This document shows positions 10,760 to 46,069 of a stretch of 46,069 bases of DNA, one piece after another. Positions within the stretch are counted from its first letter, which is position 1, and each line of letters starts with the position of its first letter. The notes under the pieces were generated by a model, which saw only the letters and a program-made list of their open reading frames with translations, did not search any database and had not been told where the DNA came from. The translations under genes were made by a program, and so were the position numbers. The stretch is from Actinosynnema sp. ALI-1.44 (GTDB taxonomy: Bacteria > Actinomycetota > Actinomycetes > Mycobacteriales > Pseudonocardiaceae). The stretch lies in contig NZ_MTQO01000018.1 of the NCBI RefSeq assembly GCF_001984155.1, positions 1 to 46,069 on the forward strand, in the 5' to 3' direction.

Positions 10760-13700
10760 ATGCACTGGAGATCACGCTTACTCGCCATCGGCTGCGCCGG
10801 TGCACTCGTCCTCGGCGCCGCGCAGGTCGCAGGCGCCGCGCCTGCCCCAGCGGCGCCTGGCGCCACCGGCAAGGCTGTCCGGCACGCCATCACCCTGGTC
10901 ACCGGCGATACCGTCCACATCGAACAGCTACCGGACGGCAAGCAGGCCGCGGCCATCCAGCCCGGCCCCGGTCGCGAGCAGATCGCCTTCCACCAGCAGG
11001 AGGTCGACGGCAACCTGTTCGTGTTCCCGCAGGACGCCGTGCCGTCGCTGACCAGCAGACGGCTCGACCGCGCCCTGTTCAACATCACCGAACTCGTCCG
11101 GCAGGGCTACACCGACGAGCAGACGCAGCAGTTGCCGCTGATCGTCCGGTATGGACCGCAGCGCGCGACGCTGGCCGCGGCCGAGGCCGGGGTGACGCTG
11201 GCGAGCGTGCGCAGCCAGGCTGTCCGGGCCGACAAGCGCCGGGCTGGTGAGTTCTGGCAGTCCGCGAGCGGCGTCGAGCGGATCTCCCTCGACCGCAAGG
11301 TGCGGGCGTCACTGGACCACAGCGTCCCGCAGATCGGCGCGCCGGAGGCGTGGGCCGCCGGGTACGACGGCACCGGCACGACCGTCGCCGTGCTGGACAC
11401 CGGCGCCGACGCCGGTCACCCCGATCTGAAGGGCAAGATCGCCGGTTCGGCCAACTTCACCACCACGGCGGACACCGTCGACCACGTCGGCCACGGCACG
11501 CACGTCGCGGCCACCGTGGCGGGCAACGGCATCCGCAAGGGCGTGGCTCCCGGGGCGAAGCTGCTGGTCGGCAAGGTGCTGGACGACGAGGGCTCCGGCT
11601 ACGAGTCGTGGATCCTCGCCGGGATGGAGTGGGCGGCCAACTCCGGCGCCAAGATCGTCAACCTGAGCCTCGGCGGCGCCCCGACCGACGGCAGCGACCC
11701 GATGAGCCAGGGCCTCAACGAGATCAGCGAACGCACCGGCACGCTGTTCGTCGTCGCCGCGGGCAACGACGGCGCGAGTGGCCCGTACAGCGTCGGCACC
11801 CCGGGTTCCGCTGACGCGGCGCTGACTGTCGGCGCGGTCGACCGGGCCGAGAAGCTCGCGGACTTCTCCAGCCGCGGGCCACGCGTGACCGACATGGCCG
11901 TGAAGCCGGACATCACCGCGCCGGGTGTGGACATCGTGGCCGCCCGAGCGGCGGGCACCTCGATGGGCAACCCGGTCGACGACAAGTACACCGCCGCGTC
12001 CGGCACGTCGATGGCCACGCCGCACGTCGCGGGTGCCGCGGCGATCCTGGCCCAGCGCAACCCGACCTGGACGGGCAAGCAGCTCAAGGACGCGTTGGCC
12101 AGCACGTCGAAACCCGCCGACATGACCGTGTTCGAGCAGGGCGGCGGCCGGGTCGACGTCCCGCGCGCGGTCAAGCAGGGCGTGTACGCCACCGGGACGC
12201 TCAGCATCGGCGCTGTCACAGACACCGTCGTACGCAAGGAGACCACGTACACCAACGCCACCCCCGCACCGGTCACCCTGACCCTGGCGCTCGACCTCAA
12301 GTCGTTCAGCGGGACCCCCGCCGGTGACGCCGTCCGCCTGGACAAGTCCACTGTGGAGATCCAGCCGGGTGGCACCGCGACCGTCGGGATCACCGCGGAC
12401 GGCCCGAAACTGAAGCACGGCACGTACGGCGGACGCCTGACGGCCACGGCCAACGGCGTGCTCGTGCACACCGCGGTCGGCCTGAACAAGGAGGCACCAC
12501 AGCACAAGGTGATCGTCGTTCCCCTGGACACCAAGGGCAAGCCGGGGTTCTTGCCGCTGTTGTCGATCTGGGGAGAAGACTCCCGGTTCGACAACCGCTG
12601 GACCCCGAAGCCCGACGGTACGTGGGAAACGGTGGTGGCCGAGGGCAACTACTACCTCTCCGCCATGGTCACCGAGAACGAGAAAAGCGCGTACATGGTG
12701 GTCAAGCCGACAGTCCGGGTCACCAAGGACACCACGGTGACGGTGGACGCCCGCGAGGCCACACAGGTCGTCGTCGAGACACCGCAGCCGTCGCGGCAGA
12801 AGGGGATCTTCAGCTTCTACGCGCACCGCGAGTTCGGCAACCGCAACATCACCAACTACGTGATGAAGTTCGAGGGCACCCGCAAGCTGTACGTCTCGCC
12901 GACCGAGAAGGTGCGGGACGGGGCTTTCGAGTTCGGCAGCCGCTGGTCGCTGGTCGCGCCGGTGCTCACCGCCACCCCGCTGGCACCGAACACCAAGCTG
13001 GAACCGGAGTACATCGCCGGCTCCCCGAAGATCAAGGGAATCCGGCTGTGGCAGACGGTACCGGTCGGCGCCGGGCAACCCGGGGACTACCGGGGCAAGG
13101 ACGTCCGCGGCAAGATCGCCCTGGTCAGGCCGACACCTGAGCAGTACGACGACGTCGTACTCGCGGGCAACGCCGCCAAGGCGGGCGCGGCGATGGTGCT
13201 GATCGCGGACCCCGAGGAATGGAGCGCGCAGGCCAGGACCAGCCGTGACCTGCCGATCCCGACGGCCAGTGTGACCTTCGAGGAGGGCAAGCGGCTGATC
13301 GAAGCGGGCAGGCACTTCCCGGTGTTCGTGTTCCTGCACGGCGTCCCGGAAAGTCCGTACCTGTACGACGTGATGCACGTCGAACAGGGTCAGGTCCCCA
13401 ACCGCGTGGTGTACCGGGTCAACGAGCGCAACTCGGCCGTTGTGCGGACCGCATACCACGAGTCCGGTGGCGACAATCAGCTCAAGGAGCAGCGGTTCGG
13501 CTGGCGGCCGTGGCAGAAGACGGCTGTCAACCAGTACCAGCGGATCGTGGCCAGCCCGTCGGTCCGCGAGGAATGGGTGACCGCGGGCGACACGACCTGG
13601 CAGCACCGGGTCAAGCACCAGCTCAGCTGGGAGAGCATGAACCCGCTGCTCGGTGGCATGCTGGAGGCGCCGCGCAAGTACCGCGCGGGGGAACGCGTCG

Positions 13701-15532: not shown

Positions 15533-18500
15533 GTGATTCGCAAACACATGGCCATCGGCCTTCTGCTCACGATGGGGCTGCTCGTCCCACCGGGTGCCGC
15601 GAACGCCGCACCCCCACCCGGCGAGTCCCCGGCGCCGGACACCGTCACCCTGATCACCGGGGACAAGGTGACCCTCAACGGCAAGAACGCGGCACGCGTG
15701 ACACCGGCGAAGGGTCGCGAAGGCACCACATTCACCCAACGAGTCGACGAGTTCGGGGACGTGCACGTCGTCCCCGTTGACGTCAACGGGATGCTGCGGA
15801 CCCACCGGATGGATCCGCGCCTGTTCAACGTGACCAAGCTGGTCCGGTACGGCTACGGCGACGCGGCACGCCCGGACATCCCCCTGATCGTCAGCGGCCC
15901 GGCAGCGGGCGCCGCCAAGGTCATGGACCTGCCGGGCATCCAGGGCGCCGCCGTCAGGGTGGACAAGGCGACGGGGTTGCGCGCCTTCAGTTCGGCGCAG
16001 CGGATCTGGCTGGACGGTCCGGTTGTGGCGATGCTGGACAAGAGCGTCCCGCAGATCGGCGCGCCCGAGGCGTGGAAGGCCGGGTACAAGGGCAAGAACA
16101 CGACGGTCGCGGTGCTGGACACCGGGATCGACGCCACGCACCCCGACCTCGCGGGCGCGGTCGTCGACGCCAAGAACTTCACCCGCAGCGAGCACGGCGC
16201 GGACGACTACCAGGGCCACGGCACGCACGTGGCATCGATCATCACGGGGCAGAACGCGAAGTACGAGGGCGTCGCACCGGACACCTCCCTGCTCAACGGC
16301 AAGGTCCTCGACGATCACGGCGTCGGTTCGGAGTCGTCGATCATCGCGGGCATGCAGTGGGCAGCCGACAAGGGTGCGAACGTGGTGAACATGAGCCTCG
16401 GCAGCCCTATGCCGAGTGACGGCACGGATCCGCTGTCGACCGCGCTCAACGCGATCACGGCCAAGACCGGAACGCTGTTCGTGGTCGCGGCGGGCAACGA
16501 AGCCGCCCAGCCCGGCCATCCGGGCGCCGCGGACGCGGCCCTGACCGTCGGAGCCGTCGACCACGACGACCAACTCGCACCGTTCTCCAACCGAGGGCCG
16601 CGGTTGGGAGACAACGCGATCAAGCCGGACATCACCGCGCCGGGCGTGAACATCGCGGCGGCCAAGGCGGCGCACGGCACCATCGGCACGCCGGTCGACG
16701 ACACGCATGTGCGGTTGTCGGGCACGTCCATGGCCACGCCGCACGTGGCGGGCGCGGCGGCGATCCTGGCTGGTGAGCACCCGGGCTGGAAGGCCGACCA
16801 GCTCAAGAGCGCCTTGATGAGCAGCGCGAAGCCGACCGCCGGGCTGTCGGTGTTCGAGCAGGGCGCCGGGCGGGTGGACGTGGCGAAGGCCGTCACGCAG
16901 AACGTGTACGCCTCTCCGGGGAGCCTCAGTGCAGGCGTCGCGCAGTGGCCGCACAACGACGACACCCCGATCACCAAGACCGTGACGTACCACAACTCGG
17001 GCACTGCGCCTGTCACCCTCAACCTGACCGCTGACGTGCGTGACCCGGCTGGGAAACCCGCGCCCGCGGGCATGTTCACCGTCGCCCCGGCGACGCTGAC
17101 CGTCCCGGCCGGTGGTCAGGCCGACGCCACGGTCACCACGGACACCAGGATCAACGGCCCGGACGGCATCTACAGCGGCGTCGTACTGGCGGGTGCCCTG
17201 CGTACCCCGGTCACCGTGACACGTGAGGTGGAGAGCTACGAGGTCACCGTGAACGTCGTCGGCTTCGACGGCGCCCCCAGCAACGACCACTACGTGGAGT
17301 TCACTGACATCGACCGCGCGCGGACGGTCATCAAGTCCGACCCGTCCGGCACGTTCGTGCTGCGACTGCCCAAGGGCCGGTTCCACCTGAACTCGTGGAT
17401 CAGCCGGGACAAGCACGCCACAGCCGTCATCGACGAACCGGAGTACCTGGTCACCGCGAACAGCACACTGACGCTCGACGCCAGGGACGGCAAACCGGTG
17501 TCGTTCGAGGTCGACCGGCCGGACGCCAGGACGGGCCAAGTCACGCTCACCTTCGAACGCAAAACCAGCACACCCGACGGCTCCCGCGCCTACTACCACA
17601 ACGCCAACGTGACCACCTTCTACGTCCGACCGTCTAAGACCACCGCGCCCGCCGACCAGTTCCGCTACACCGCCGAGGGTCTCCTGGCCCAGCAGGACGC
17701 GAACGGCAGCTTCGACGCGAGCCCGTACCTCTACCACGTACACACCGAGACACACGGGAAAGTCCCGGACAACCTGGTCACCAAGGCCACGACCAGCCAA
17801 CTGGCCAAGGTCCGTTCCGAGCACGCGACCACCACGGCGGCGACACGCTACGGCGTACGCGACTCGATGATCAGCAAACCGTTGCCGTACTCGTTGGACG
17901 AGTACTACACCCCGGACGTGCCGTGGACAGGGACATTCATGCAGTCCGAGAACCCCGACGGGTACCCGGCCGAGTCCGAGCAGTACGAGTACGTGCCGCG
18001 CACGTTCGAACTCGGCCAGCCTGCGACGGTCCGCTGGAACTACGGCGTGTTCGGCCCCGGCTTCGCGGTGCCGTACGACCGGTCGGCGCATCGGTTGGGC
18101 AACGAGGTCTCCCTCTTGCTCGGTCTGTTCACCGACCAGGGAACCGGCCGGGTGGGCTGGGCCCCCGGGACAGGGACGACCGAACTCTCCCGGGACGGCA
18201 CGCGGATCGGTGTCATCGAGGGCCCGGCGGTCGGCCGGTTGACCGTCCCCGCCGGACCGGCAACGTACCGGTTGCACACCGAGTTCGCCCCGGCCCATTC
18301 GATGTCCACAAAGGTCACAGCGGACTGGACGTTCGCGTCCGACACCGTGCCGGGCAACAAGCCCAAGGCGTTGCCGTTGATGGCGGTGAAGTTCGCCCCA
18401 TCCGGTCTGGACGGCCACAACCGGGCCGCCCGAGCGCTGCCGACCATCGTCCCGGTGAGCGTCGACCACAACTCAGGCGGCACGGCGAAAGCACCGGCGG

Positions 18501-25843: not shown

Positions 25844-25929
25844 CCAGGTGTACGCCGAAAGCAGGGTCGGCCTGTGCATCGGGCACAGAGGGATCGACGG
25901 CTGCGTGCAGCAGGCACAGGAGGTTCGGC

Positions 25930-26120
25930 GGCTTGTGTGCGAACACAGACTGGTGCTTCGGGGTTTCTTCCTTCCGTATGGCCTGGGCGAAGCCCAACCA
26001 CACGTGTCCAGAGGTCCGCCTGCCCAACCAGCCCCGGCGACAGCGCAACGGACCTCTTGACGCGTGTGGTTGCCTCTGGCAGTCCGTACGGAAGGAAGAA
26101 ACCGCGCCCCTGACCCCCGG
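25930..26120 (+). ncRNA. Candidate structured RNA/ssDNA unit, type A
   Basis: A small hairpin TGTGT-GCGA-ACACA (25934-25947) with a GNRA-type loop precedes a long nested stem. The outer arms of 17 bp, GGTTTCTTCCTTCCGTA (25962-25978) and its exact complement (26087-26103), enclose CAACCACACG/CGTGTGGTTG (25995-26004 with 26063-26072), then AGAGGTCCG/CGGACCTCT (26010-26018 with 26049-26057). The apex contains CAACCAGC and GCGACAGCG. The same layout with different but paired stem bases occurs at 45,583-45,775. Orientation is a guess, chosen so that the unit ends in CCGCGCCCCTGA. Confidence 0.45.
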
Positions 26121-26476
26121 GACACCGCACCTCGACCTGGCACTGAAGCCGACCTGACCCTTTCCCTTTCGGTGGCCTGCCTCCCGGCGAGGGAATCTCT
26201 TCACCCCCGCGACCCCGGTGGTTCGGACATCTATGCCCCGGGCACGGTGACGGTCATGCCGCGGTGTCCCGGGTGGAAAGAAGCCCTCGCCGGGGAGCAG
26301 ACCTCGGGGCAGGAGGTTCTTCGCGCCGTGTTCTTCCCGGCGCATGCTTTTATGACCCGGGGTTTCAGGGCGCGGGCGTCCCCTGCCCGTCGACCTGCCC
26401 CACGGAACCACGGACTATCAAGAGGATCGGTACCGCTGTCACTGGCGCTGGTTATCGTGGGCCGACCTCTGGACAG
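26060..26476. repeat. Long inverted repeat, left copy
   Basis: This ~417 bp segment recurs reverse-complemented at 45,652-46,069. By eye 26,217-26,402 is identical over about 186 bp; the rest has scattered differences. It contains the 3' half of the type A unit, a central hairpin decayed in this copy (CCCGGCGAGGG... with ...CCCTCGCCGGG), the short stem GCGCC/GGCGC, and a facing type B unit truncated at 26,476. At that point the similarity stops and AT-richer sequence begins. Confidence 0.9.
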
Positions 26477-26556
26477 TCTGCGGTTGTCAATTGTAACCAT
26501 TCTGTAGTGCACGGATAGTGATACCACCAGGTCAGCAACAGTCAGGCCCTGTCAGC

Positions 26557-36688: not shown

Positions 36689-39600
36689 ATGACAACTCGT
36701 CGCACGCTCGTCCGAGGTGGGGACGTCGGCTCGCTGTCCCTGCGGGTTCAACTGCTCGGACCGGTCCGCGCGTGGAGCGGCGACGACGAGGTCAAACTCG
36801 GCAGCGGCGGCCGCAGCGCTGTGTTCAGCGCCCTCGCCATGCACGCGAACGAGGCCGTCTCCCGGGCCGACCTGATCGACGGGCTCTGGGGCAACAGCCC
36901 GCCCGCCAAAGCCGTCGGCATCCTGCACACCTACATCCACGACCTGCGCAGGGCGCTGGATCCGGGACGCGACAAGCGCGCCGACTCCGGTGTGCTCGCG
37001 ACCGTCCAGACCAGCTACTCGTTGCGGTTGCCCGACGAGCAGTTCGACGAGCGGCGCTTCGCGATCCACCAGGAACAGGCACAACGGCACTGGGCCGCCG
37101 GTGACCTCACCGCCGCGGTCGCCGCGCTCGACACCGCACTCGCGCTGTGGCAGGGCGAGGCACTACACGGTGTGCCCGGGCCCTTCGCCGAGGTGCAGCG
37201 GGCCCGTCTCGAGGAGAGCCGGATCACCGCGGTGGAGCGCCGCAGCGCGCTGCTGCTGATCCAGGGCGGACACGACAAAGTGGCCGCGCACCTCGCCGAA
37301 CTCGTCGCCACGGCACCGTTCCGGGAGACCACGCGCGGGCTGCTGATGGTGGCGCTGAACCAGGCCGGGCGACGCGCCGAGGCGATCGAGCTGTACCGGG
37401 ACACCGAACAGATCCTGATCAGTGAACAGGGCATCGAGCCGAGCCCCGTACTGCAGCGGATCCAGCAGGACGTCATGACCGGGCAACCGGTCCCCGCGGA
37501 GGTCATCAGCGCGGGCGTCTGGACACCGCGTCCCGCCGACCGCGCCGCCGCGTTGCCGAAACGCTCCAGCCCCGCGCCTCCCCCGGCGCTGATCGGCCGG
37601 GACGACGAGGTCGAGTGGCTGCACGCGGCGCTGGCGGACCTGCGTTCCGGCCACGGTGACTGCGTCGGCATCGAAGGCGCACAAGGCATCGGCAAGACGG
37701 CACTGGTCGCGAGCGCGTTCGCCGAACCGGACGACACGTACACGGTCACCTGGGGCTCGCTGTCGGACACGGCCGACCAGGTCGTCTCGTACGCCGAGCG
37801 GATGTGCGCGGTGCGGCCGTTGGTGCTCGTCGTCGACGACATCCACACGGTCACCGACGAGAGCGGATTGCTGACGTGGCGGCGGCTCGCCCACCTCACC
37901 CAGCAGTTGCCGTTGCTGCTGGTCGGCGTGTTCCGGACGGTGCCGCACCCCGCCCGCCTGCGTAGCGCGGTCGGGGCGACCGGCGGCCGGGTCAGGACCA
38001 TCGGACCGCTGGCGCGGGGGGACGTGGTCGAACTCGCGGAGCGGCACCTCGATGCCCGCTGTGGGCCGCACCTGCGGGACCTGCTCGACGCCGCCGCGGG
38101 CAACCCGTCGTTCGTCCACGAACTGCTGGGCACCCTGACCAGCGGTCAGACGCTGCGGACCACGGCCGGGGTCGTCGATCTCAACCCGGACCGCCAGGTG
38201 GAACCGTCCGACGTGCTGGCGTACTTCACCAGGAAACGGCTCGGCGTGCTCACGTCCGGCACCCGGAACACCCTGCGCAGCGCCGCCCTGCTCGGTACGC
38301 GGTTCGACCTCAGCGACCTGGCGGCGGTGCTGCGGATGCCCGCGACCGACCTCATCACGGCCGTCGACGAGGCCATCGTCGCGGGCATGGTGGACAACAC
38401 CGGCCAGCGGCTCGCGTTCCGGGACGCCGTCCTGCCCAAGGTGCTGTTGGAGGAGCGGCCCGCCGCGGCCCGCGCCGGGTCGCACCGGGACGCGGCCGAA
38501 GCGCTCGCCACCGCCAGTGCACCGGTCGAGCGGGTCGCGGCGCAGCTGCTCGCCGCCATGTCGATCGACGCGAGCCAGGTCGACACGTGGACCGTGCGGT
38601 GGGTGCTGGACAACGTCGACGCCCTGGCTCTGCGGGACCAATCGACTGCCTTCGAGTTGCTCGACCACGCCGTCGCGGCGACGTCGGCCGACAGGCAACA
38701 CCACGACGCGCTCGCGCTGTGCCGGGTGCGGCTGGCGTTCCGGCTCGGCAGGCGTCCACGGGCCGAAGCCGAGGCGGTGCTCGCCACGACGGGCGACGCC
38801 GAGCTGCGGTGGATCCTGGCGCACCTCGACTACCAGGAGGGCGCCGAGGACAAAGCCGCCGAGGACCTCCGCGCCGCCGAGCAGGACCCGGCCGTTCCGA
38901 TGTACTGGCGAGCCCGGTACGAGTCGCTGCGGGCGCAGTTCGAGCCCGGCGCCGACGGCCTCGACGCGGCTGTCCAGGCCTCGAACACCGCGCTGCGGCA
39001 TGCGATGGACACGTCGGATGCCAAGGCGGCGTTGCAGGCGCGCCGGGAGCTGTGGTACTTCGCGACCGTGCGACGCGACCACCAGGCCGCGCTGGCCCAC
39101 GCGGAAGCGGCGCTGGACATCGTCCGGGACAACGCCGACCTCGCCCCGTGGCACCTCAACGTGCTCGACGGCCGCGCCATCTCGTTGCAGAACCTGGACC
39201 GGCTCGACGAGGCCACGCATACGCTCACCAGGATGCGCTACATCGGCAGTCGCTTGCAGCCGCCCGCCGAGCGCCTGCACGTCGTGAGCGCCGCGCACGA
39301 GTACTGGCGTGGGCGCTGGGACGAGGCGCTCGCCCAGCTCGACCTCGTCACGCAGAACGGTGACGGCCAGTTCCACTACCCGTTCGCCCAGTCGCCGCTG
39401 TTGCACCACGGTCTCGCCGCACTGATCGCCGCGCACCGCGGCGACACGGACCAGTTGCGGGCGCGGCTGCGGGTGGCGGCGACGTGGCCTGTCGTCACGA
39501 ACAGGGATCGGGAGAACAGCGACTACCTCGTGGTGGCGCGCGCGGTGGACGCAGGCATACGGCTGGGCCCGATGGCAGAGCTCGACGCGCTGGCTCCTGT

Positions 39601-40255
39601 CCTCGACCCGGAGTACGGCAGGGCCACGCTGCGGCATCAGTGGTTGCCCCGAGTCGTCCGGCTCGCCCTGGACGTCGGCGACCAGCACCGCGTCGCCGCT
39701 GCCCTCCGGATGTGTGAGTTCGAGGCGACGCGCGAGGTGACTCCGGCGCGTGCGTACGCCGCGCTGCGCTGGTGCCAGGCGCTCGTGGACCGCGACCCTG
39801 ACGTCCTGCTCGCCCTGGCCCAGCACTTCCGCACGGTCGGCAGGTCCGTCGAAATGGCAGCGGTGCTGGTGGACGCCGCCGTGGCCCTGGCCGAACGCGA
39901 CCAGACCGGCCTCGCGCGGGACACGTTCGCCGAGGCGCTGTCGGCATTGGGCGAACTGGAGGCCGCGACCGACATCGACCGGGCCACGGCACGCATGCGC
40001 GAACTCGGTGTCCAGGTCGGTGCCGGTGGCGGTTTCGACGGTACGACGACCACCGGGTGGGGTTCGCTGTCGGATCTGGAACGCTTGATCGCGGAACTCG
40101 TCTCGTCCGGCCAGGCGCTTCCCGACATCGCCGCTGGGATAGCGCTCTCCCGGCGGGATGTGCAGGCGCATCTGTCCAGCGTGATGCGCAAGCTCTCGGT
40201 CGAGTCCCGTGCCGACCTCGCCGAGAGGTTCCGCGAGGTGGCAGGCAAACCGTGA
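36689..40255 (+). CDS. Giant BTAD-ATPase-TPR regulator with LuxR helix-turn-helix
   Basis: A 1188-residue regulator. Residues ~15-110 are a SARP-type winged helix, ~115-265 the BTAD domain (ALWQGEALHGVPGPFAEVQRAR), ~285-560 an AAA-type NTPase with Walker A GAQGIGKT and Walker B LVLVVDDIH, then a helical TPR-like region. The last ~65 residues are a LuxR-type helix-turn-helix (LIAELVSSGQALPDIAAGIAL, RRDVQAHLSSVMRKL). It thus has two DNA-binding domains, one at each end. The next gene is a shorter-tailed paralogue 22 bp downstream, so the two are probably one operon. The ligand and targets are unknown. Confidence 0.85.
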   Translation: MTTRRTLVRGGDVGSLSLRVQLLGPVRAWSGDDEVKLGSGGRSAVFSALAMHANEAVSRADLIDGLWGNSPPAKAVGILHTYIHDLRRALDPGRDKRADSGVLATVQTSYSLRLPDEQFDERRFAIHQEQAQRHWAAGDLTAAVAALDTALALWQGEALHGVPGPFAEVQRARLEESRITAVERRSALLLIQGGHDKVAAHLAELVATAPFRETTRGLLMVALNQAGRRAEAIELYRDTEQILISEQGIEPSPVLQRIQQDVMTGQPVPAEVISAGVWTPRPADRAAALPKRSSPAPPPALIGRDDEVEWLHAALADLRSGHGDCVGIEGAQGIGKTALVASAFAEPDDTYTVTWGSLSDTADQVVSYAERMCAVRPLVLVVDDIHTVTDESGLLTWRRLAHLTQQLPLLLVGVFRTVPHPARLRSAVGATGGRVRTIGPLARGDVVELAERHLDARCGPHLRDLLDAAAGNPSFVHELLGTLTSGQTLRTTAGVVDLNPDRQVEPSDVLAYFTRKRLGVLTSGTRNTLRSAALLGTRFDLSDLAAVLRMPATDLITAVDEAIVAGMVDNTGQRLAFRDAVLPKVLLEERPAAARAGSHRDAAEALATASAPVERVAAQLLAAMSIDASQVDTWTVRWVLDNVDALALRDQSTAFELLDHAVAATSADRQHHDALALCRVRLAFRLGRRPRAEAEAVLATTGDAELRWILAHLDYQEGAEDKAAEDLRAAEQDPAVPMYWRARYESLRAQFEPGADGLDAAVQASNTALRHAMDTSDAKAALQARRELWYFATVRRDHQAALAHAEAALDIVRDNADLAPWHLNVLDGRAISLQNLDRLDEATHTLTRMRYIGSRLQPPAERLHVVSAAHEYWRGRWDEALAQLDLVTQNGDGQFHYPFAQSPLLHHGLAALIAAHRGDTDQLRARLRVAATWPVVTNRDRENSDYLVVARAVDAGIRLGPMAELDALAPVLDPEYGRATLRHQWLPRVVRLALDVGDQHRVAAALRMCEFEATREVTPARAYAALRWCQALVDRDPDVLLALAQHFRTVGRSVEMAAVLVDAAVALAERDQTGLARDTFAEALSALGELEAATDIDRATARMRELGVQVGAGGGFDGTTTTGWGSLSDLERLIAELVSSGQALPDIAAGIALSRRDVQAHLSSVMRKLSVESRADLAERFREVAGKP

Positions 40256-40277
40256 CCACTCGAGCGAAAGGAGCGTG

Positions 40278-43200
40278 GTGACCGCCACACCGCGCGATCC
40301 ACTACCGGACGGCTCACCGCGGCGTGCCCCGCTGCGGGTCGAGGTCCTCGGCCCGATCCGGGCGTGGCTCGGTGACACCGAGATCCGGCTCGGTCCGACG
40401 CGGCAACGCGCCGTGTTCGCTGTGCTCGCGATGCGCCGTGACCAGGTGGTGACCAGGGAGGAACTGGTCAGGGCGGTGTGGGGCGGTGAGGCTCCCGCCA
40501 CCGCGGACGGCAGCGTCCACACCTATATGTCGGGCCTGCGCCGCGTCCTGGAACCCGACCGGCCACGCGGCGCCGCCAGCACGGTCCTGCCATCGGAACC
40601 CCCCGGCTACCGGCTCGACCTACCCCAGGACGCGCTCGACGCCGCGGTGTTCGACACGCTGTCGGCACAGGCCCGCACGGCGCTCGACCGCGGCGACCCG
40701 GCGGCTGCCCTGACCACCGCCGCCCAAGCACTGAACATGTGGCACGGCGAACCGCTGGCCGGGTTGCCCGGCCCGTTCGCCGCCGACCAGCGCGTGCGGT
40801 TGGCCGACGTCCGGTTCGCCCTGCTGGAGACGCACGCCGAAGCCGGACTCGCCACCGGCAGGCACGCGGAACTCGTCGCCGAACTGACCACGCTGGTCGC
40901 GCAGCACCCGTTGCACGAAGGACTGCGCGGCCTGCTGATGATCGCGCTGTACCGCAGCGGCAGGCAGGCCGACGCCCTCGACCACTTCCGCGAGGCGCGG
41001 CAGGCGCTGGACAGCGAACTGCGCAGCCGTCCCAGCGAGCGACTCGCCGAGATCCACCAGCAGATCCTGGTCAACGACCCGGCACTGGCGTGGGCGGACG
41101 TGCCTGCCGCACCGGTCGCGAAGCGAACGCCGATGCCGCGCAGGCGGGCCAGCAAGTTCGTCAACCGGGACAAGGAGGCGGCCCGGCTGCGGGCGGCGCT
41201 GGCCCGGCTGATCGACGGGCACGGCGGTCTGGTGTGGGTCGACGGCGAGCCGGGCATCGGCAAGTCCGAGCTGCTCACGACCGGCCTCGCCGAGCTGGAC
41301 ACCTCGGGGGTCCAGCTCGCGTGGACGTCGGGAGACGAACTGGCGCAGCGCTTCCCGCTGCAGGTCATCCTGCATTGCCTCGGTGTCGACGCGGCGTCCG
41401 CCGACCCGCGGCGAGCCCGGGTGGCCGAGCTGGCCGGCGGAGCCGCGTCGCGTGGCGACCTGCTCGGCGGCGGTGACAACCGGCACGCCGTCGCCGACGC
41501 GACGGTGGCGCTGGTGCGTCAGCTGTGCACGGACGGGCCGCTCGCCATCGTCATCGACGACATGCAGTGGGTCGACGAGACCAGCATGCTGGTGTGGGAC
41601 CGGCTGGCCAGGCAGACCGGGCATCTGCCGCTGTTGCTGGTGGCCGCGTGCCGTCCGCTGCCGCGAACACCGGCCCTGCAGGCCATGCGGGACACCGTGG
41701 CGCGGGAAGGCGGCGCGCTGCTGCGGCTGGCTCCGCTGTCCGACAGTCAGGTCAGCCAACTGCTGCAGGGACTGCTCAACGCCACCCCCGGGCCGGGTCT
41801 CGGGCAGCTGGCGGCGCACGCGGCGGGCAACCCGCTGTACGTCGAGGAGCTGGTGGACGCGCTGGTGCGCGAGCACGGCCTCCGGGTGGCGTCCGGCGTG
41901 GCCGACGCGAGCACGGCACCGACCATGTCGCTCGTCTCGGCGCTGGAGCACCGGCTCGGTTTCCTCTCGCCGGACGCGGTCGACGTGCTGCGCCGCGCCT
42001 CGCTGCTCGGCACGGAGTTCCGCGTCGACGAACTGTCCACAGTGCTCGCCAAGGCGCCGGTCGAGTTCCTCGCCGCGATCGAGGAAGCGGCGACGGCCGG
42101 TGTGCTCGTGGCAGACGGCGAACGGATGGCGTTCCGGCACCCGCTGATCCGGCAGGCACTCTACGAAGGCATGGTCCCCGCGCTGCGGGCCGCGTTGCAC
42201 CGGCAGGCAGCCGAGGCGCTCGACCGCGTCGGCGCCCCGGTCGCCACCGTCGCGGGCCACCTTGTCGCCGAGTCCTCCACGATGGACAGCTGGGCGGTGG
42301 CGTGGGTGCACGAGCACGGTGAACGAGTCGCCTCCCGCGCCCCGGACGTCGGCCGTGAACTGCTGCGCCGGGCAGTCGGATCCTGTGACGTCGCCGACCC
42401 GAGGCTGGACGGGCTGACCACCAGCCTCGCCAGGGTCCGGTACCGGCTGAGCGAATCCCCCGAGGACGAAGTCCGTTCGGTCCTCGCGACCACACGGGAC
42501 CCGGACCTCATCGGCGAGATGCACTGGATACTCACCACAGTGCTCTACCGGCGAGGCATGGAGGCACAGGCGGTCAGTTCGTTGCGCGCGGCCGTGGCCA
42601 CCGCGGGCATGTCCGATCTCTGGCGGGCACGCTGCCTGGCCCTGTTGGCCGCGCGGGAACGGAGCCTCGGCGACGCGATCGCCACCGAAAGAACCTCGTT
42701 GTGGGCGATCAGGGAAGCGGAACGCGTCGGTGACGCGTTCGCCAAGGGCTACGCGCTGGAGAACCTGTGGCTGCTGCACTCGATCGGCCGTGACCACGTC
42801 GAAGCGTTGCGATACGTCGACGAGGCGCTGACGGTCGTGAGCGCGGCGTGCGAGACCGACTCGACGTTGGCGCACCTGTACGTGAGCTTGTTGGACAACC
42901 GCCTCTTCGCCCTGCAAAGCCTGGACCGGCTCGACGACGCGGACAAGACCCTGCGCGTTGCCGACGAGGTCATGCGGCGCCACCAGTTGCCGTCCGGCCG
43001 ATGGGTGTCCGCCGCCGTGAACCACTACTGGGTCGGCCGTTGGGACAACGCCATGCGCGACCTTTCCGACGTCGCCACGACGTGGGATCTCGACATGAGG
43101 TTCCACGGGCTGCGGGAAAGCGGTCCGCTGATGCTGTTGCTGCACGGCGTCGCGAGCCTGATCGCGACCTGCCGCGGCAACGAGGCTCAGGCCAACCGGC

Positions 43201-43790
43201 ACCTCACCGCGGCCGACGACCTGCCGATGCTCACGGCGGCGGATCGGGAGAACTGCGACTTCCTGCTGATGGCCGAAGCCCTCGCCGCGGAACGGGACGG
43301 CCGCCCGGACACCGCGCTGATCGCGTTGAAACCGATCGTCGACGAGCACTACTCGCCGATGATGCTGCGCCACCAGTGGCTTCCCGACGTCGTGCGGATC
43401 GCACTCGCCGCGGGAAACCAGACGATGGCGATGCGAGCGTTGGAGGTCTGCGCGTCGGAAGCCCGCAAGGAAACCACGCCCGCGCGCGCCGCGGCCGCGC
43501 TCAACCGCTGTCGCGGCCTGATGAACCAGGCACCGGACGAGGTCCTCATCGCGGCCCAGCACTACGAACAAGTCGGCAGACCAGTCGAGCTGGCGCAGAC
43601 GCTCGAGGACGCGGCCGTACTGCTCGCCGAGGCCGGGCGTGTGGACGAATCCTTCGCCGTGCACGCGAAAGCACTCGCGCACTACGACACGCTCGGTGCC
43701 GTGTGGCTTGCGCGTCGGGCCACCGGCCGACTCAAGGCGACCGGGGTCACCCCCCGAACCCAGAGCGACGAACACCCGAAGGCCGGGTGA
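40278..43790 (+). CDS. Giant BTAD-ATPase-TPR regulator without LuxR domain
   Basis: A 1170-residue paralogue of the previous gene: winged helix (~20-110, EIRLGPTRQRAVFAVLAM), BTAD (ALNMWHGEPLAGLPGPFAAD, RGLLMIALYRSGRQADALDHF), NTPase with Walker A GEPGIGKS and Walker B AIVIDDMQWVDE, NPLYVEEL, then TPR-like helices. It stops after ARRATGRLKATG without the C-terminal LuxR helix-turn-helix of its partner. GTG 40278 follows AAAGGAG. The two may form a hetero-oligomer on shared sites; this is inference from the tandem arrangement. Its 3' end overlaps the small minus-strand gene by 44 bp. Confidence 0.85.
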   Translation: MTATPRDPLPDGSPRRAPLRVEVLGPIRAWLGDTEIRLGPTRQRAVFAVLAMRRDQVVTREELVRAVWGGEAPATADGSVHTYMSGLRRVLEPDRPRGAASTVLPSEPPGYRLDLPQDALDAAVFDTLSAQARTALDRGDPAAALTTAAQALNMWHGEPLAGLPGPFAADQRVRLADVRFALLETHAEAGLATGRHAELVAELTTLVAQHPLHEGLRGLLMIALYRSGRQADALDHFREARQALDSELRSRPSERLAEIHQQILVNDPALAWADVPAAPVAKRTPMPRRRASKFVNRDKEAARLRAALARLIDGHGGLVWVDGEPGIGKSELLTTGLAELDTSGVQLAWTSGDELAQRFPLQVILHCLGVDAASADPRRARVAELAGGAASRGDLLGGGDNRHAVADATVALVRQLCTDGPLAIVIDDMQWVDETSMLVWDRLARQTGHLPLLLVAACRPLPRTPALQAMRDTVAREGGALLRLAPLSDSQVSQLLQGLLNATPGPGLGQLAAHAAGNPLYVEELVDALVREHGLRVASGVADASTAPTMSLVSALEHRLGFLSPDAVDVLRRASLLGTEFRVDELSTVLAKAPVEFLAAIEEAATAGVLVADGERMAFRHPLIRQALYEGMVPALRAALHRQAAEALDRVGAPVATVAGHLVAESSTMDSWAVAWVHEHGERVASRAPDVGRELLRRAVGSCDVADPRLDGLTTSLARVRYRLSESPEDEVRSVLATTRDPDLIGEMHWILTTVLYRRGMEAQAVSSLRAAVATAGMSDLWRARCLALLAARERSLGDAIATERTSLWAIREAERVGDAFAKGYALENLWLLHSIGRDHVEALRYVDEALTVVSAACETDSTLAHLYVSLLDNRLFALQSLDRLDDADKTLRVADEVMRRHQLPSGRWVSAAVNHYWVGRWDNAMRDLSDVATTWDLDMRFHGLRESGPLMLLLHGVASLIATCRGNEAQANRHLTAADDLPMLTAADRENCDFLLMAEALAAERDGRPDTALIALKPIVDEHYSPMMLRHQWLPDVVRIALAAGNQTMAMRALEVCASEARKETTPARAAAALNRCRGLMNQAPDEVLIAAQHYEQVGRPVELAQTLEDAAVLLAEAGRVDESFAVHAKALAHYDTLGAVWLARRATGRLKATGVTPRTQSDEHPKAG

Positions 43791-45128: not shown

Positions 45129-45582
45129 CAACGTGCACAGGTATGTGAAGCACGACTGCGACCCGGCCCCGACTGCGACGCGTAGACGCCGCAGCGGGCC
45201 GCAGGACACAGCTTCACCGGGCACCTTTCCTTGTGGCATGCGCGAAGCCACCCTGAGCCAGCCGTAAGGAAAGGCACCCCGCACACCCGGGAACTCCCCC
45301 ACGAGATTCCCGGGACCCAGCTCTTGGTGGTCTGTCCAGCCGGGAGGCATCTCCCCCTTTCGCCCCGGAAGACCGAGCAGGTGCGTCCGCCCGCCCCAGC
45401 CGGAGAACCCCGCGAGGCGAAAGAGCCAAACCAGCAGGCAGACCACCAAGAGCGAAGCGCAGACCAGTCCGATCGGTGCTCGCGCAAAGCAACCAGAACC
45501 AGCCCGCGCACCGCAGAATCCGACCACAAAGCAAGCACAAGCAACCACAGCCAGCGCGCACACAATGCAACCCGCAACGGCT

Positions 45583-45775
45583 TGCGCGCGAGCGCAGAGT
45601 GGTGCTTCGGGGGTGTCTCCTGCCCGTCGGCCTGGGCAAAGCCAACCACGGGCTGTCCAGAGGTCGGCCCACGACAACCAGCTCCAGCGACAGCGGTACC
45701 GATCCTCTTGATAGTCCGTGGTTCCCTGGGGCAGGTCGACGGGCAGGGGACGCCCGCGCCCTGAAACCCCGGGTC
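45583..45775 (+). ncRNA. Candidate structured RNA/ssDNA unit, type B
   Basis: It has the same order of elements as at 25,930-26,120. The small hairpin is TGCGC-GCGA-GCGCA (45583-45596), with the same GCGA loop but a different stem. Then come the outer stem GTCTCCTGCCCGTCG (45615-45629) with 45737-45751 (one T-G pair), an inner stem around AACCACGGGCT/AGTCCGTGGTT, and AGAGGTCGG with CCGATCCTCT. The apex again contains CAACCAGC and GCGACAGCG, and the unit ends CCGCGCCCTGA. Stems change together while loops stay fixed. Confidence 0.45.
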
Positions 45776-46069
45776 ATAAAAGCATGCGCCGGGAAGAACA
45801 CGGCGCGAAGAACCTCCTGCCCCGAGGTCTGCTCCCCGGCGAGGGCTTCTTTCCACCCGGGACACCGCGGCATGACCGTCACCGTGCCCGGGGCATAGAT
45901 GTCCGAACCACCAGGGTCGCGGAGGGGAAAGAAGCCCTCGCCGGGAGGCAGGCCACCGAAAGGCAAAGGGTTGGGACGGGCTTCAGCGTCGGGTCGTGGT
46001 GCGGTGTCCCGGGGGTCAGGGGCGCGGTTTCTTCCTTCCGTACGGACTGCCAGAGGCAACCACACGCGT
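45652..46069. repeat. Long inverted repeat, right copy (runs off the window)
   Basis: Reverse complement of 26,060-26,476, with about 186 bp identical by eye. It continues to the last base, so its outer end is not visible. It comprises the 3' part of the type B unit, an intact central hairpin, and the beginning of a facing type A unit. Confidence 0.9.
45835..45945. repeat. Central hairpin of the repeat, 20 bp arms
   Basis: CCCGGCGAGGGCTTCTTTCC (45835-45854) pairs perfectly with 45926-45945 across a 71-base loop. In the left copy the corresponding arm near 26,172-26,193 has several substitutions that break pairing, so the right copy is the better preserved. Confidence 0.75.

Follow-up and report, generated by a model that had tools for sequence, protein, structure and literature searches.

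In integron attC sites the fold is kept while the sequence varies, and these sites are strand-specific. Folded intergenic elements are also found on mobile rolling-circle replicons: the single-strand origins, such as sso1 of ICEBs1 (PMC4595007) and sti of pIJ101 (PMC4170104), lie in one fixed direction relative to the replication genes and are defined as working in a single orientation and only in the form of single-stranded DNA (ssDNA; PMC4595007). REP/REPIN sequences, instead, are dispersed intergenic palindromes of 20-40 bp, found also as inverted pairs and moved by RAYT transposases (PMC3116915, PMC3733652). The rolling-circle integrative conjugative elements called AICEs, of the pSAM2/pMR2 kind, encode int, RepSA, an FtsK-like Tra and a GntR regulator; in the main text of the paper describing them (PMC3218068) the terms "inverted repeat", "non-coding" and "secondary structure" are absent, and no folded element of this sort is described there. 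Here we report on a repeated folded element in contig NZ_MTQO01000018.1 of Actinosynnema sp. ALI-1.44, whose 46,069 nucleotides, the entire contig C12 of an 11.7 Mb genome (G000), are referred to as the window; a preliminary description, made from the letters alone, had drawn attention to two of its copies.

The repeat is a strongly conserved folded non-coding element, and its link with AICEs, which are the hosts of its relatives, is firm. Like the known single-strand origins, it is intergenic, folded, carried by mobile rolling-circle replicons and locked in one direction relative to the replication genes; unlike them, it is far longer, has a four-way fold followed by a further hairpin, named Z, and has, in two lineages, tens of copies on the chromosome. 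The reading that we prefer, at slightly less than an even chance and with a function that we infer, is that of a strand-specific element of rolling-circle replicons, whose role on the replicon would most likely be that of a single-strand origin and which would later have given rise, in two lineages, to a repeat dispersed over the chromosome.

The two repeated units lie where they had been placed: 25929-26020 and 45578-45669 are direct repeats with 74% identity (D3). Each of the two sites is a convergent (inverted) pair of a ~140-nt imperfect palindrome (I1-I3), built as a long hairpin: its outer stem leads to a four-way junction, where two mini-hairpins branch off opposite each other, and continues as an inner stem with a variable tip; the small hairpin Z, with loop GGCGA, follows ~20-90 nt downstream. 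A pattern search for Z over the whole window gave four occurrences, two forward (26186 and 45838) and two reverse (26291 and 45942), all within the two pairs. The outer stems TTTCTTCCTTCCGTA and TCTCCTGCCCGTCG pair each with its own partner arm, as had been proposed, but the stem of unit A is longer than 17 bp, having 22 columns of which one (pair 20-129 of A1) is mismatched. The stems reported to differ and yet to pair, TGTGT/ACACA and TGCGC/GCGCA, are real. The features of the window are the following, R1 being the model used in the searches:

25934..25947, + strand: short flanking hairpin TGTGT-GCGA-ACACA, closing an upstream series of similar hairpins (from ~25870)
25964..26101, + strand: core of unit A, R1 match of 139 bits (L001 1536-1671)
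25964-25985 with 26080-26101, + strand: outer stem of unit A
25986-25994, + strand: mini-hairpin 1 of unit A
25996 to 26071, + strand: inner stem of unit A
26072-26080, + strand: mini-hairpin 2 of unit A
26164..26202, + strand: Z hairpin of locus 1, pattern match at 26186
26272..26310, - strand: Z hairpin of locus 1, loop at 26291, in a 97% inverted repeat with 45643-45929
26365..26486, - strand: B-type unit, the second of locus 1, truncated by lack of its outer 5' part (I1), partial model match, positions 31-116
45583..45596, + strand: short flanking hairpin TGCGC-GCGA-GCGCA, read in the sequence
45614..45752, + strand: core of unit B, R1 match of 120.4 bits (L031 1555-1693)
45816..45855, + strand: Z hairpin of locus 2, pattern match at 45838
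45926..45966, - strand: Z hairpin of locus 2, loop at 45942
46009..46069, - strand: A-type unit, the second of locus 2, cut mid-unit by the contig end (I2), 100% to query 131-191

Selection on the fold, which the preliminary description had suggested, was borne out by very strong covariation in two alignments of homologues. In a MAFFT alignment of 16 units, with the structure set by the author, 93.7% of 764 cells were paired and 24 of 49 pairs had changed on both sides, while slid versions of the same structure paired at most 47.4%; the model-fitted alignment, which leans towards the structure and has among its 99 rows one read in reverse (L062 plus strand), gave 97.9% of 4465 cells paired and two-sided changes in 39 of 48 pairs over 94 distinct rows. 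None of 500 shuffles reached either result, for the MAFFT alignment on any measure. Rfam covariance models had no match at gathering score in the whole window, and over 25850-26520 only sub-threshold microRNA and internal ribosome entry site matches were obtained, in line with the earlier statement that no known family is recognisable; CRISPR, tRNA and riboswitch are ruled out by the same lack of Rfam matches. Covariation and the Rfam negative together support the interpretation as a candidate new RNA or ssDNA element.

Mismatches within helices, counted in a symmetric arm-to-arm alignment, were G·T in 272 cases and A·C in 17 among 108 distinct units, and 230 and 12 in the 88 units with Z; the corresponding counts for 23 clusters (identity below 85%) are 52 and 2. 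This excess of G·T indicates that the fold matters on one strand, the one reading the unit towards Z, as in a single-strand origin, although the count does not separate ssDNA from RNA. Z was found downstream of the unit in 96 of 117 cases and never upstream, so the two belong together. Mini-hairpin 1 has a GNA triloop, a loop very stable in DNA, in 84 of the 108 units. The leading segment of Z resembles the 5' arm of the outer stem: its mean score, with relatedness not removed, was 8.13 against the arm of its own unit and 5.98 against the others (0 of 2000 permutations), and it scored above the mean of the others in 20 of 23 cases, relatedness again not removed. Z opens with a second copy of the 5' arm, so that the 3' arm of the outer stem has two possible partners.

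The follow-up goes beyond the preliminary description in the inverted pairs, in the dispersed repeat family and in the relatives on rolling-circle AICEs. Contexts of 20 kb were fetched around 13 units outside the window's genus, and AICE genes, confirmed by Pfam as RepSA, FtsK/SpoIIIE, integrase and GntR/UTRA, lie beside the unit in 10 of them (L174-L179, L181, L182, L183 and L185), that is in 8 of the 10 genomes with one or two matches and in 2 of the 3 with 5, 5 and 12. The unit points in the tra/rep direction in all ten. Both att repeats, 18-73 bp long and in four cases overlapping a tRNA gene, were found in seven of the ten loci; in all seven the unit lies between these direct repeats, as do RepSA, Tra and integrase; its distance to the nearer end is 168-1794 nt, and it occupies the end away from int in the five where int was called.

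RepSA searches gave matches in 113 of 200 genomes of the family and in 48 of 197 of the class. Forty RepSA loci, 20 from Pseudonocardiaceae and 20 from other families, were then hand-picked without looking for the unit (5 of the 40 stretches being clearly shorter than 20 kb). Z is present in 15 of the 20 Pseudonocardiaceae loci, always in the same direction as RepSA (15 of 15), which is, as in the ten contexts above, the fixed orientation expected of a single-strand origin; beyond the 9 loci that R1 recognises, six further Z-bearing loci of the family have, just upstream of Z, a long hairpin of another subtype, without mini-hairpins. Among the loci of other families, Z was found in none of 20 and R1 in one (L259), whose hairpin shares 74% identity over 232 nt with non-coding DNA beside int of pMR2, an AICE of a different family; the pMR2 hairpin is followed, in the direction of rep, by the segment ATCCCGGAG. 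A rolling-circle plasmid of Streptosporangium (L217), with a HUH-type rolling-circle Rep and no annotated integrase, carries the same fold, mini-hairpins included, and Z (R1 E = 7.5e-11), which ties the element to replication or transfer and not to integration. A weaker match, with Z, was found on a Pseudonocardia plasmid (R1 E = 0.00016), while blastn of plasmids with an AICE unit gave mostly short Z-only or chance matches. On a Pseudonocardia megaplasmid, L218:5660-5720 contains a tRNA-like 3' end just before a unit with Z and is a probable remnant of an AICE end.

On chromosomes the element is a dispersed repeat. DNA searches with A and B, merged, gave at least 66 stretches in the own genome, some of them partial, in 45 places, 21 of which are pairs (the best 40 candidates being scored for each of A and B); at least 41 places are found at E <= 1.2e-15, one being the unit's own reverse strand. 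By DNA search 12 of 60 genomes matched, including all 8 of the window's genus. R1, the model search for homologues that had been proposed, also matched these 8 genomes and, at E <= 1e-4, 74 of 249 genomes of the family in 24 of its 46 genera, with the best 13 candidates at most scored per genome. A class-wide R1 search with strict filters (E <= 1e-6) found nothing outside the family, the own genome being the only one of 296 to match; this negative is weak, because R1 did find the other-family AICE unit L259 in a small search (E = 1.8e-7). A pattern scan of named genomes gave 44 stretches: 24 in a Saccharothrix sp. metagenome-assembled genome (MAG), 2 in Kibdelosporangium persicum and 18, uninspected, in other taxa, mostly Pseudomonas, which were taken for chance. 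The copies are dispersed along contigs and not terminal, which excludes a Streptomyces-type telomere, and the 20-kb inverted repeat of the window is not an invertible segment, its pair being two of 45 such places. Contigs end and start inside units, so that the repeat breaks assembly: the window's contig stops in mid-palindrome (46009-46069) and C38:1-99 opens with the matching other half, C38:1-74 being a 100% match to query 1-74, and contig C38 probably holds the rest of that unit; at least six further contigs of the own genome start within or close to units of this kind. Many copies are bordered by arrays of short, GC-rich hairpins whose loops are of GNNA type (25870-25950; flanks in L015, L024 and L193-L198), and a smaller palindromic repeat, possibly a second module family, has the same tip sequence as the unit (CCGCC..ACG...CAGCCCCGAGCG...AGCCAAACGG), set on different stems (L065:480-535, L064:1425-1490, L063:1675-1735).

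Gene contexts were tallied at 62 loci, 17 loci without two flanking open reading frames (ORFs) having been dropped and one counted twice: 28 are convergent, 30 codirectional and 4 divergent (19, 17 and 3 in the window's genus; 9, 13 and 1 in the g22 group and the MAG). Codirectional contexts show no sense-strand preference (14 ++ against 10 -- in the genus, and 7 against 6 in the second non-AICE group), which rules out a sense-strand element of 3' untranslated regions. Copies in three genomes of the g22 group are 79-97% identical with unrelated flanks; both g22 sites tested (Actinosynnema group) are common to a second species, so many insertions are old. One locus of the genus is common to G000 and G002; in G000 one unit is missing, and two copies of the 8-nt repeat GCTCCTGC bound the gap: an old site that has lost a unit. 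The repeat is not derived from an insertion sequence as far as seen: clustering of flanking ORFs gave no recurrent transposase family, the only recurrent genes being those of AICEs, and a Y1 transposase (PF01797) is absent in 11 of the 13 genomes searched, G000 included, and present in 2. For this reason a REPIN/RAYT system is ruled out, and the unit, at ~140 nt, is also much longer than REP sequences. The likeness to attC sites ends with conserved fold, variable sequence and strand specificity, since there are no cassette arrays and no adjoining integron integrase in the contexts seen.

Among the possible roles, a single-strand origin is the most likely one because of the rolling-circle hosts, the direction locked to rep, the constraint on one strand and the plasmid without annotated integrase. 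That the family arose on AICEs is the parsimonious reading, since AICE copies span several families and high-copy chromosomal families are seen in two lineages. Several results weigh against the single-strand origin. Three of the 13 contexts (L180, L184 and L186) have no rep or tra gene within ~10 kb, 5 of the 20 unselected family loci lack Z, and R1 recognises only 9 of these 20; it does not find the pMR2 hairpin, and it gave nothing convincing (best E = 0.28, outer stem only) in pIJ101, a plasmid with a known single-strand origin, sti. RepSA, at E <= 1e-30, is absent from 7 of the 8 genomes of the window's genus, G000 included, so that in these genomes the chromosomal copies exist in the absence of RepSA-type AICEs and the window's own copies are not components of one. 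Moreover, GNA loops are not universal, the GAA cases being mostly related B copies, and conserved wobbles of the G·U type fit RNA no worse than ssDNA. Indeed, a structured RNA, e.g., a read-through attenuator between attP and the AICE transfer genes, is an unlikely but serious rival, retained mainly because the three-arm arrangement suits an attenuator, in which the 3' arm would pair alternatively with the 5' arm or with Z; after excision, transcription from rep or int would pass attP into the unit. The strand asymmetry, with ~7% G·U among the cells of the A4 alignment (tally), fixed wobbles such as pair 43-126 (UG in 29 of 94), the closeness of the Z lead to the arm of its own unit and the T-rich stretch that often follows Z fit this idea, whereas the absence of sense-strand preference of the chromosomal copies and of anything similar in Rfam speaks against it.

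The element might instead be a non-autonomous mobile DNA, resembling a miniature inverted-repeat transposable element, which hitchhikes on AICEs without a role there and whose fold serves its own ssDNA mobilisation. The dispersed copies, 79-97% identical and with unrelated flanks, and the avoidance of divergent (promoter) intergenes agree with such a history; on AICEs, however, place and direction are fixed in several genera, the copies are accompanied by no recurrent transposase, a Y1 transposase is missing from 11 of 13 genomes, no target duplication was seen at them by eye (no formal test was made), and the sites shared between species imply that many insertions are old. We rate this possibility slightly below the RNA. 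Near-palindromes of this length are prone to template-switch correction, which could produce covariation without selection, and one orthologous locus pair does differ by loss of a whole unit between 8-nt repeat copies; yet this explanation, like that of a double-stranded palindrome acting as protein site or cruciform, is very improbable, given that G·T far outnumbers A·C, whereas both mismatch kinds would be equivalent in a cruciform, and that the non-palindromic parts, i.e., the two mini-hairpins and Z, remain distinct between one side and the other from family to family. A more specific history, as doubtful as the RNA alternative, is that a single-strand origin or other ssDNA-folding element became a self-spreading chromosomal repeat, moving via ssDNA without a Y1 transposase, as singles in Actinosynnema/Saccharothrix and as convergent doublets in Kibdelosporangium, the name used here for the window's genus.

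Two further duplications were noted in the window. Segments 11277-12190 and 15999-16912, 4.7 kb apart, are 72-91% identical and one stretch reads by eye as a subtilase signature (SGTSMATPHVAG); they are probably tandem secreted serine protease genes. The adjacent ORFs 36689-40255 and 40209-43790, each of ~1190 aa and with DNA segments 72-85% identical (D8, D20), are probable tandem duplicates.

No prior description of the element was found in the literature searched, which mostly missed subscription works (e.g., AICE reviews, and the pMR2 and pMEA300 papers), nor was any description found there of how the single-stranded intermediate of AICEs is converted to double strand. AICEs are the main conjugative elements of antibiotic-producing actinobacteria, and a direction-locked, covarying element on 15 of 20 unselected Pseudonocardiaceae RepSA loci, as judged by Z, makes this conversion testable. 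If the reading is correct, this would be, within the literature searched, the first description of a structured element found family-wide on AICEs. The dispersed copies account for contig breaks in these genomes and would show a route by which a non-coding part of a replicon becomes a chromosomal repeat family; an ssDNA-folding element turned repeat would represent a new origin for bacterial interspersed repeats.
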